This document shows, piece by piece, positions 32,802-38,283 of a stretch of 64,000 bases of DNA. The DNA is from Fusobacteria bacterium ZRK30 (GTDB lineage Bacteria > Fusobacteriota > Fusobacteriia > Fusobacteriales > Fusobacteriaceae). The position numbers and the translations under genes were made by a program. The first letter of the stretch is position 1. Each line of letters starts with the position of its first letter. The stretch covers positions 1,612,001-1,676,000 of the forward strand of contig CP102405.1 of the NCBI GenBank assembly GCA_024628785.1. Direction: 5' to 3'. The notes beneath the pieces were generated by a model. The model was not told the origin of the DNA, ran no database searches, and was given only the letters and a program-made list of their open reading frames with translations.

Positions 32802-34019
32802 TTAAGTTCTATATGCCCCATTAATTTTTACATAATCATAGGTTAAATCACATCCCCAAGCTGTAGCTGAATACTGACCGTCTTTTAAATCAATTTCTAC
32901 TTTAATTTCTGGTTTAAGTAAGATTTCTTTGGCTTTATCTAGATCAAATTTTATTCCCATACCATCTTTAGCTATCTGAACATATTCCCCTTTACTAAAA
33001 AATGAAATATCTATATTGTTGGGATTAAATTCAACATCTGAATAACCCACTGCACAAAGGATTCTCCCCCAATTTGCATCGGCACCAAAGAAAGCACACT
33101 TAGTAAGATTGGATCTGATAACTGATTTTGCAGATATTCTAGCATCTTCTAAAGTTTGGGCATTTTTTACCTCTACCTCTATAAGTTTAGTAGCTCCTTC
33201 CCCATCTTTAGCTATCAATTTAGCCAATTCTGTATTGATATAGATTAAGATATCTTTAAATTTTTCAAAATCTTCTCCAGCAGTTTCAATTTTTTTATTC
33301 TCTGCCAATCCATTGGCTATAACCATAGCCATATCATTGGTACTGGTGTCTCCATCTACAGAGATCATGTTGTAAGACATATCCACACTATCTTTAAATG
33401 CTAGGTCCAGCATCTCCTTACTGATATTTAAATCTGTAACCAAGGTCGAAAGCATAGTACCCATATTTGGATGAACCATTCCAGACCCTTTGGCTATTCC
33501 GGCTAAAGTTATCTCTTTTCCATCTATCTCAAAGGAAACAGCAATTTTCTTTTCCGATGTATCTGTAGTTAACATAGCTATAGCTGCATCGTGCCCCCCT
33601 TGGGCAGACAGATTTTCACACCCTTTTTTTATGGCTAACTCTATTTTCCCCATATCTAACTGCACTCCTATGATTCCGGTGGATTGTACTATTACCTCTT
33701 CTTTGGAAACCCCCAATATGTCGGCAGTGAGCTGAGCCATGGTATTGGCATCTTCCAATCCTTTTTTACCTGTGCAGGCATTTGCATTACCACTGTTTAC
33801 AACCACTGCCTTGGTGATGGAATTTTGAATATGTTCCATGTTCATTACTATGGGGGCTGCCTTTACCTTGTTTTTTGTAAATACAGCTGAGGCTACAGGT
33901 TCTCCCTTTGAATGAATAACACAAAGATCCTTTTTACCACTTTTTTTAAGGCCGCCTGATACTCCGCTAGCAGTTATTCCAACAACATCTGTTATAGTTT
34001 TTCCCTCTAATATTTTCAT
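32802..34019 (-). CDS. argJ: Bifunctional ornithine acetyltransferase/N-acetylglutamate synthase
   Basis: 405-aa ArgJ, which recycles the acetyl group from acetylornithine to glutamate. The self-cleavage site is AIAMLTTDTSEKK, where the second Thr of the TT pair is the family's nucleophile. VHPNMGTML, SVDGDTSTNDM and NWGRILCAVGYS are also typical. It is full length. Its SD (GGAGG) sits in the last codons of a small ArgJ-like gene directly upstream. It is likely intact and, in a working pathway, would make a separate argA unnecessary. Confidence 0.94.
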   Translation of the reverse strand: MKILEGKTITDVVGITASGVSGGLKKSGKKDLCVIHSKGEPVASAVFTKNKVKAAPIVMNMEHIQNSITKAVVVNSGNANACTGKKGLEDANTMAQLTADILGVSKEEVIVQSTGIIGVQLDMGKIELAIKKGCENLSAQGGHDAAIAMLTTDTSEKKIAVSFEIDGKEITLAGIAKGSGMVHPNMGTMLSTLVTDLNISKEMLDLAFKDSVDMSYNMISVDGDTSTNDMAMVIANGLAENKKIETAGEDFEKFKDILIYINTELAKLIAKDGEGATKLIEVEVKNAQTLEDARISAKSVIRSNLTKCAFFGADANWGRILCAVGYSDVEFNPNNIDISFFSKGEYVQIAKDGMGIKFDLDKAKEILLKPEIKVEIDLKDGQYSATAWGCDLTYDYVKINGAYRT

Positions 34020-34025
34020 CTTTTA

Positions 34026-34274
34026 TCATCCTCCTTTAAATAAATTACTGTTCACCACTATTACTTTAGTTACAGGGCATCTAATATACTCGACATCCAT
34101 AAAGACAGACTCTATTTTTGCTTTATTTTTTTTAAATGCAGTGGAGGAGTCAGTTTCATCCTCCGAATGGGTAATGCCGCAATCTTTTTTATCTATTTGC
34201 TTTAGATAACCTAATATTTTCTCATCTTTGGCCTTGTCCACATCAATCATTGTTTTCTTTTTTCCCCATTTCAT
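34026..34274 (-). pseudogene. Duplicated, diverged N-terminal fragment of ArgJ
   Basis: 82-codon open frame whose whole length aligns with ArgJ residues 1-80. Shared positions include MK..GK.KT..DV, LKK/LKQ, KKD, THSE/IHSK, KNK.K and TKVIVVNSN/TKAVVVNSG. It stops where ArgJ continues with GNANAC. It has a good SD (AGGAGG) and ends in codons that form the argJ SD, so it is placed like a translated leader for argJ. Without the remaining 320 residues it cannot be an acetyltransferase. It is either a decayed duplication or a short protein kept for coupling. Confidence 0.75.
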
Positions 34275-34303
34275 CGTTTTTTATTCCTCCTCTCCAATGA
34301 AAT

Positions 34304-34987
34304 TTAAGGAAAAATAGAGATGAAATCTATTCCTGTCGCTTCCTCAAATCCAAATATCGCATTCATATTTTGTATTGCTTGACCTGCTGCACCCTTCATA
34401 AGGTTATCTATGGCCGATATAATTATGACCCTTCCCGTTCTTTTGTCCACTCTTACAGTGATATCGCAATAGTTACTTCCTTTTACCCACCTTGTTTCAG
34501 GTAAGGTATCTTTGATTCTTATAAATTTATCTCCATGATATTCCTCTGAATATATCTTTTTTAACTCTTTTTCTTCGATATCTTCTCTAAGTTTTGCATA
34601 GATAACTGATAAGATCCCCCTATTCATAGGGACAAGGTGGGGAGTGAATGTAAGAGTTATCTCTTTTTTACTAATTTTACCAGCCTCTTGTTCTATCTCC
34701 GGTGTATGCCTGTGAGTTGCCACTGCATTTGTGATTTCAAAGGCTTTTCCATGGGGAAGAGCTATAAAAAGAAGGTCTATTTTATTGAGATATTTCTCAA
34801 CCTGTGTATTAGAAATACATACCTTATTAAATTCATAGGAGTAATTTTCATATATGCTAGAAAACTCCTGTCCCTCATAACTATGAGAGGCAATAAATTC
34901 TATTTTTATCTGAGGATGGGTTCTCAACAGCCCTAAAAGTTGTTGACCAGCATACCCGGTGGCTCCTAATATTCCGACATTTTTCAT
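34304..34987 (-). pseudogene. argC: N-acetyl-gamma-glutamyl-phosphate reductase with in-frame core deletion
   Basis: The 227-codon frame starts as a normal ArgC (MKNVGILGATGYAGQQLLGLL; LLFIALPHGKAFEITNAV) and jumps directly to ATHRHTPEIEQEAG and the normal C-terminus (TFTPHLVPMNRGILS; NLMKGAAGQAIQNMN). About 115-120 residues are missing, including the NPGCYPT segment with the catalytic cysteine. The junction near 34715-34730 is in frame. Family length is about 345. The product cannot catalyse the reductase step. It is the first gene of the arg operon, with a normal SD, and follows two arginine leader peptides. Confidence 0.88.
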
Positions 34988-36939: not shown

Positions 36940-37590
36940 ATGAAAAACTACAGAAAAGAAGAGGCGTTTATTATGGATTTTGAAAAGATATTCGAGTACT
37001 ACGGATATGAAAAGATTAAATTGAATACCTTTGAAAAGTATGATACATACTTTACTAATAAAGATATAATAAATCCAAATGGGGATCTTTATGTGTTAAG
37101 ACCGGATATGACTCTACCGGTAGTAAAATATTTTTTCGAGCAGCAGACTCAAAGTGGAAAATTTTATTATAGTGACAGTGTGTTTCGTGCAGATAAAAAA
37201 GGTCTGGAATTCAATGAAAGGAAACAGGTGGGAATAGAGTATCTGGGTGGTGAAAACATCTTATCCGATATAGAGATCTTAGATCTTGCTGTACAGACCT
37301 TGGAAAAATTAGACCATAGTTATATTTTGTGTATTTCTAATACGGAATTTATCAAAGAGATGATAGAGACTCTAACAGAGGAGAAAGAGCAAGGGGAACA
37401 GATACTTGAATATCTCTATAGAAGAAGCAGTGATCTTGAAAGTTACCTTGTAAAAATTGATATAGAAGAGGAAAAAATTACCAGACTCCTCCAATTAAAC
37501 AAGCTCTTCGGAAACTTTAAAAGGGTAAAGGAAACTCTTTATAAAATGGCAGTAACTGATAAACAAAGAAAACCCTGTAAAACTTGCTAA
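36940..37590 (+). pseudogene. hisZ: hisZ, 3'-truncated by a deletion
   Basis: The 216-codon frame encodes the first about 205 residues of HisZ, the regulatory subunit of short-form ATP phosphoribosyltransferase (class II tRNA synthetase-like). It shows LYVLRPDMTLPVVKYF, FYYSDSVFRADKKG and ERKQVGIEYLGG. After about 37550 the sequence changes to hisF sequence in a different frame, so the last residues (KQRKPCKTC) are not HisZ. HisG, its obligate partner, is missing. AGGAGGAATAAT precedes the ATG. It is likely nonfunctional. Confidence 0.8.
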
Positions 37591-37821
37591 AATATATAAT
37601 GAGATGGGTGCTGATGAGTTAGTCTTTTATGATATCACTGCTACTAATGAAGAAAGAGAGCTTTTTACAGATATTGTTGAGCAGGTGGCAAACCAAATAT
37701 TTATATCCCTCACAGTAGGAGGAGGGATCAATACACTCAATGATTTTGACATGGTATTAAAGGCAGGTGCAGATAAAGTAAGTGTCAATTCAGGGGCAGT
37801 CAAAAATCCTGATCTGATCAG
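37556..37821 (+). pseudogene. hisF: Internal fragment of hisF
   Basis: The frame reads ENPVKLAKIYNEMGADELVF, then ITATNEERELFTDIV, LTVGGGINTLNDFDMVLKAG and [16 protein letters not shown]. That corresponds to about residues 30-120 of the 250-residue HisF cyclase. The N-terminal catalytic Asp segment (IIPCLDVKNGRVVKG) and the C-terminal half with the second catalytic Asp are gone. No SD-led start exists; an internal ATG at 37604 gives a 105-codon frame that runs out of phase into hisI. It is a remnant only. Confidence 0.88.
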
Positions 37822-38283
37822 AGAAGCAGAAAGGAACTCTGGAACAAGGGAGCAAGTTCTGGAAATATTCAAAAAACAAAAGAACTATCCTGCGACTGTG
37901 ATGGAGACACTTTACTTATAAAAGTAGAACAAAAAGGTCCTGCGTGTCATACAGGAAAAAGATCTTGTTTTTTTAATAAAGTCACACCTGTTAAAAATCT
38001 GACCATGGGAGAGGCACTCTTTACCCTTGATGATATTTTAAAAGACAGAAAAAAAAATCTCATGGAAGGGTCATATACAGCCTATCTGTATAAAGAAGGA
38101 TTAGATAAGATACTAAAAAAAGTAGGAGAAGAGTGTGCAGAGGTAATTATTGCTGCTAAAAATTCTGATAAATCAGAACTTATATATGAGGTAAGTGATC
38201 TTTTATACCACCTTTTAGTCCTTTTAAATGAGCAGGAAATAAGGCTAGAAGAGATAAAAGATGAACTTATAAAAAGAATGTAA
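37822..38283 (+). pseudogene. hisIE: hisIE with 5' part deleted; HisE domain complete
   Basis: From the junction the frame reads [33 protein letters not shown] and [11 protein letters not shown], the C-terminal part of phosphoribosyl-AMP cyclohydrolase HisI. It continues into a full phosphoribosyl-ATP pyrophosphatase domain HisE ([35 protein letters not shown]). An in-frame ATG at 38005 could start a 92-aa HisE alone, but no good SD was seen. HisI lacks its N-terminal half. The hisG, D, B, H and A genes are absent between hisZ and here. Confidence 0.85.

Follow-up and report, generated by a model that had tools for sequence, protein, structure and literature searches.

A diverged partial copy of argJ held in an open frame between argC and argJ in Fusobacteria bacterium ZRK30

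The arginine gene cluster and the frame between argC and argJ

We analyzed a stretch of 64,000 nucleotides (the window) of Fusobacteria bacterium ZRK30, a member of the family Fusobacteriaceae (contig CP102405.1, positions 1,612,001 to 1,676,000). Its minus strand carries, in order, argC, an 82-codon open reading frame (ORF) and argJ, and then argB, argD and argF, the last three named by eye. The argJ gene (32802..34019, minus strand) encodes 405 aa and is full length by Pfam (PF01960, 489.1 bits), and argC (34304..34987, minus strand) encodes 227 aa and has an internal in-frame deletion. The gap between them spans 284 nt (34020..34303, minus strand) and contains the ORF (34026..34274, minus strand), which opens with ATG and has a product of 82 aa. 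Codons 1-76 form a diverged partial copy of argJ, and the 6-codon tail comes from the sequence upstream of argJ. Direct reading places a Shine-Dalgarno (SD) region (GGAGAGGAGG; 34286..34295, minus strand) 5' of the ATG, with both ribosome site and start close behind argC. At the other end, the tail NLFKGG and its stop are the argJ upstream sequence read in frame, including the argJ SD AAAGGAGG; the final codons AAA GGA GGA TGA (34026..34037, minus strand) make up this site, as the earlier note on this DNA had read it, and the stop codon lies between the argJ SD and the argJ start. Among the titles and abstract openings listed, none pointed to a paper on this locus.

The ORF aligns without gaps to residues 1-76 of the adjacent ArgJ, with 30 of 76 residues identical and a local score of 128, whereas 1000 shuffles gave no more than 57. 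When the register was shifted over offsets -10 to 29, the 30 identities were found at offset 0 and at most 13 at every other offset tested. At the DNA level, the copy and argJ agree at 46, 49 and 33 of 76 first, second and third codon positions. The earlier note had claimed a match to ArgJ residues 1-80; the homology is real and gapless, but it ends at residue 76 (VNS). Its description of a strongly diverged yet open frame holds, as the window copy has no stop and no other disabling mutation.

ArgJ, a bifunctional ornithine acetyltransferase / N-acetylglutamate synthase (PF01960), is the source of residues 1-76 of the copy, which differs from it in being only 82 aa long and in lacking the rest of the enzyme. 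Its score against the Pfam ArgJ profile is 12.4 bits, under the cut-off of 32. Near-invariant ArgJ residues lost in the copy include G23, T48, V52, A55 and P56, and 13 of 24 conserved N-terminal sites of known ancestral state are changed. In solved structures the alpha chain gives way to the beta chain near ArgJ residue 187; the copy stops at residue 76 and lacks the region of the self-cleavage site and the beta chain. The fragment cannot have ArgJ enzyme capability. Nothing was found to support an interaction with ArgJ, which had been proposed as one possible role.

Aligned with its counterparts in two species of the same genus (G002 and G006), the window argC lacks 118 codons, in frame, with the junction near 34729. 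The deleted segment includes NPGCYPT, as seen in G002, whose cysteine is presumably catalytic in ArgC, and the genome holds no other match above the argC cut-off. Since argC lacks its active-site segment and no second argC was found, arginine synthesis is probably interrupted in the window's species, and it is doubtful that the ORF now contributes to arginine supply. On the plus strand (36940-38283), a shortened HisZ-like frame of 216 aa precedes a HisF-like fragment of 105 aa (by Pfam) and a frame that resembles HisE by eye, a layout suggestive of a his cluster that has lost its central part.

Upstream of argC lies a pair of short frames rich in arginine, MLIRRSRMRRKESINPIILKWLD (35512-35441, minus strand) and MLRKRFRRSNLKSSIFL (35178-35125, minus strand). 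Both have good SD sites, and a terminator-like hairpin comes after each of them (35372-35347 and 35098-35073). Both frames are conserved in G002 and G006, a similar pair occurs in Propionigenium maris (L025), and single arginine-rich frames occur at L003-L007, L012, L014 and L015. No such frame was seen in the 700 nt examined at each of the eight loci L026-L033, or in the 286-397 nt of sequence covered at L002, L008, L010, L011, L013 and L017. Two such frames per 700 nt turned up in 4 of 500 shuffles; of 362 window stretches, 2 had them, and these may include the site itself. The arrangement looks like a putative ribosome-mediated attenuation system of the arg operon, and it may be of wider interest than the argJ fragment.

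Other signals in the region were considered and set aside. No Rfam match reached the gathering threshold anywhere in the window, and the argC-argJ gap folded no better than shuffles in the two genomes in which it was folded (z -0.12 in the window, -0.78 in G002). A promoter-like match inside the ORF (34240-34213, 9/12) was unconvincing, with 14 matches in 1901 bases against a shuffle mean of 9.0 (sd 2.9). A structural model of the copy was unusable (mean pLDDT 38.3) and says little, as the control, a fragment of ArgJ itself, was also modeled poorly (55.7).

Origin of the copy and its state in relatives

The copy stems from a partial tandem duplication at the 5' end of argJ, which took in codons 1-76 and about 27 nt ahead of them, including the ribosome site. 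To follow its history, we used a genus sample of eight genomes, three of which have argJ (four of the five argJ-less ones are only 62-81% complete), and a family sample of 61 genomes, 12 with argJ. The argC-argJ gap measures 284 nt in the window, 176 nt in G002, 62 nt in G006 and 272 nt in P. maris, which belongs to the same family but lies outside the genus; these three are the nearest relatives that have both argC and argJ. Copies are known from three genomes only, those of the window, G002 and P. maris, and among the relatives examined the complete 82-codon open frame is confined to the window's species.

In the sister species G002, the gap holds a 52-codon remnant with a GTG start behind a GGGGG stretch, which covers most of the gap and overlaps the argJ start as ATGA. 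This remnant is recognizable through the window copy, against which it scores 82 (shuffle maximum 49), and not through its own ArgJ (score 43, below the shuffle maximum of 50). P. maris DSM 9537 (listed as both L019 and L025) has a full-length copy broken into 15 codons with a TAA at codon 16 and a 1-nt deletion that shifts the frame; a 54-codon frame then runs from an internal ATG to a stop that likewise overlaps the argJ start as ATGA. About 44 nt separate the two small frames. The 62-nt gap of G006 contains no copy. The earlier note had named two findings that would speak against its idea, absence in all sister species or a neutral substitution pattern with disabling mutations, and the outcome is mixed: the P. 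maris copy is disabled, that of G002 mostly lost and G006 has none, but the window copy is undamaged. By direct reading, each of the three copy-bearing loci combines an SD site of its own with a stop that adjoins or overlaps the SD or start that comes next, and the anatomy of the window ORF fits candidate translational coupling from argC to argJ.

We also scanned for loci at which argC lies beside argJ with a gap of 60-700 nt, which allowed 37 of 103 loci (L001-L103) to be scored, some genomes being present twice (L019=L025, L023=L024, L018=L030). When each gap was compared with its own ArgJ, only those of the window and of P. maris (listed twice) beat all 200 shuffles; the near-misses were L022, which is G002 (5 of 200 shuffles reach the score), and L055 (2 of 200). 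No argJ-like copy was found in the 117-120-nt gaps of six loci or in the 300-nt gap of Geosporobacter subterraneus, where the longest short frame has 35 codons. In three more members of the family (L120-L122), the gap does not exceed about 20 nt. In two other Fusobacteriales an acetyltransferase-like gene, named by eye, sits between argC and argJ (L020, 2732-3166; L009, 2771-3265).

As in a relic of duplication, the copy adjoins its source and has the same junction in all three genomes, where the argJ upstream sequence follows codon 76. The copies of the window and P. maris share K6, K19, G33, T35 and Y63, found in none of the six ArgJ compared (the chance expectation was not computed), and Y63 is common to all three copies. 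Because of this common junction and these shared residues, a single duplication in the common ancestor of the genus and Propionigenium, before their split, is most likely. Likelihood tests on 76 codons rejected none of four topologies, with AU p values of 0.27 for independent origin and 0.24, 0.82 and 0.24 for three single-origin trees. Independent duplications in two genera are nevertheless disfavored by the identical junction and shared residues, and gene conversion between copy and argJ could mimic them. Compared with partial tandem duplications and truncated-gene relics in bacteria, the locus has the same tandem position, copied ribosome site and gene start, and staged decay in relatives; it differs in that the window frame is still open and its end doubles as the argJ ribosome site.

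Tests for selection in the copy

Codon models excluding the short G002 remnant were used to ask how the copies have evolved; with omega set to 1, the window copy has diverged by roughly half a substitution per site. With omega = 1 on all copy branches the log-likelihood was -1413.42, and freeing the window copy raised it to -1405.56 at omega 0.17 (F3x4); under F1x4, fitted on one topology, it rose from -1419.97 to -1413.15 at omega 0.19. The other two F3x4 topologies gave omega 0.16 and 0.25 on the window branch. Overall, this branch freed alone yielded omega 0.16-0.25 with 2 delta lnL of 8.4-16.1 (three topologies under F3x4, one under F1x4), and 0.20-0.27 when the P. maris branch was freed too; the likelihood profile was about 2.6 units lower by omega 0.5. 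None of 160 neutral simulations reached a 2 delta lnL of 13.6 (0/40 under the fitted model, 0/40 with moderate and 0/80 with strong heterogeneity; one starting point per fit). For the P. maris copy alone, two topologies gave 2 delta lnL of 5.6-6.1 and the third gave 1.8. If independent origin is assumed, omega of the window copy is still 0.25 (2 delta lnL 8.4), and the P. maris copy is compatible with neutrality (2 delta lnL 1.8). Including the G002 remnant gave a single omega of 0.28 over all copy branches (lnL -1466.75, versus -1477.93 at omega 1). When the remnant was included and omega was freed only on the window lineage, the fit drifted to extreme values (branch lengths 3-5, omega 0.04) and was discarded.

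Comparisons between copies by codon position are independent of argJ. The window and P. maris copies differ at 31, 31 and 44 of 74 first, second and third positions (one-sided p=0.0099), a third-position excess of 13 that was reached in 0 of 80 neutral simulations. Over the 20 codons of protein-guided alignment, window and G002 copies differ at 6, 4 and 15 positions (p=0.0003), and P. maris and G002 copies at 7, 8 and 13 of 20 (p=0.04). Both the omega below 1 and the surplus of third-position differences in the window-G002 pair argue for selection on a translated product after the species separated.

The probability that codons 2-76 stay open under neutral substitution is 0.067-0.078 for t 0.5 and falls to 0.044-0.057 for t 0.6. 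These values count stops only, and the absence of indels lowers them further. At about 4-8%, chance alone could account for the open frame. The number of kept residues (24 of 54) exceeds the neutral expectation at t 0.6 (P 0.03) and not at t 0.4-0.5 (P 0.57, 0.18).

Other tests gave no sign of constraint. At known-ancestor sites, where four argJ agree, the window copy is changed at 19 of 60 first, 23 of 67 second and 12 of 30 third positions, and the third positions do not differ significantly from the first and second combined (42 of 127; p=0.52). Conserved ArgJ residues were not favored: at known-ancestor sites the copy kept 11 of 24 that are conserved in ArgJ and 13 of 30 that are not (p=1.0). 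Replacements were no milder than neutral ones (mean BLOSUM62 -0.70, against neutral means of -0.62 to -0.74). Since retention is not tied to ArgJ conservation and replacements are as harsh as neutral ones, any constraint did not preserve ArgJ-like features. The dN/dS comparison suggested in the earlier note gave a divided answer: codon models reject omega = 1, but the known-ancestor test and the replacement pattern do not. Its argument that an open frame suggests a role is partly supported, by the evidence for past protein-level constraint (omega 0.16-0.27), but not by the decay in relatives or the lack of ArgJ-linked retention.

Readings of the open frame

The explanation that we lean towards, at a little over even confidence, is that the ORF is a translated, once-constrained argJ fragment in decay, without ArgJ activity, and thus a relic; its main rival is a frame that bridges argC and argJ. 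According to the former, the fragment would have retained its start, SD site and stop beside argJ, and the keeping of these three elements suggests that it was probably translated within the arg message. Its protein sequence may have been weakly constrained for part of the lineage history, as codon models support, although not every test does. The fragment would now be in the course of being lost, broken as it is in P. maris, shortened in G002 and absent in G006, and in the window it would sit behind an argC without its active-site segment, its frame still open through residual constraint and luck. Several observations count against a relic: the window copy has no disabling mutation, at a P of 0.044-0.078 for an intact frame; omega below 1 and the third-position differences from G002 point to selection; the residues kept are more numerous than expected at t 0.6; and in each of the three surviving copies the frame terminates at the argJ start or next to it, something not required of a mere relic.

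These same endings are what a bridge would predict, a reading that we hold to be possible but doubtful. Ribosomes leaving argC would translate the fragment and restart at argJ, avoiding the untranslated gap (and polarity) made by the duplication; what would matter is that the frame stays open and stops at the argJ SD, and its sequence would count for little. The SD and start close behind argC, the stop between argJ SD and start, the ATGA endings in G002 and P. maris and the span of the G002 frame over most of its 176-nt gap are consistent with this, as is a frame that stays open despite divergence, and replacements without an ArgJ-like pattern suit filler. However, pure filler predicts omega near 1, and the models give 0.16-0.27; P. 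maris tolerates an interruption of about 44 nt; and the 117-120-nt gaps and the 300-nt gap of G. subterraneus exist without an argJ-like copy. Translationally coupled short upstream ORFs in operons likewise have a stop beside or over the SD or start of the next gene, but the window ORF is derived from the very gene it precedes, and its coupling is a prediction.

Alternatively, a small protein with its own function, such as a partner that binds ArgJ or a nascent peptide with a regulatory effect, could be encoded, with the C-terminal EYIRCPVTKVIVVNSNLFK under selection. Omega below 1 would agree with this, as would codons 62-76, where window and G002 copies differ at 4, 2 and 10 of 14 positions (p=0.0025). 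We nevertheless consider it improbable: G002 has lost the N-terminal part, P. maris has it in broken form and G006 lacks the copy altogether, copies occur in three genomes only, the model of the copy has low confidence (to be read beside that of its control) and the replacement pattern is neutral-looking. A strictly neutral pseudogene from birth, open here by chance only, is disfavored and, to our judgment, the least probable of these readings, for the third-position test at known-ancestor sites, replacements with no tie to ArgJ conservation and the disabled or shortened sister copies would suit it, but the likelihood ratio with its simulations, the low open-frame probability and the third-position excess between window and P. 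maris speak against it.

Our preferred reading remains that of a translated fragment in decay. As a rather unlikely but broader possibility, the duplicate fragment may have been co-opted as a short translated ORF under its own selection, unrelated to the conserved features of its parent, and carrying ribosomes from argC to argJ; it would then be a new small gene at birth, already vanishing in sister lineages. The locus makes one partial duplication traceable in four lineages, where it is open, shortened, broken and absent. It illustrates that being diverged yet open does not by itself prove function, as well as the reach and limits of codon statistics on 76 codons. If the bridging role were true, a gene fragment would have been recruited merely to be translated.
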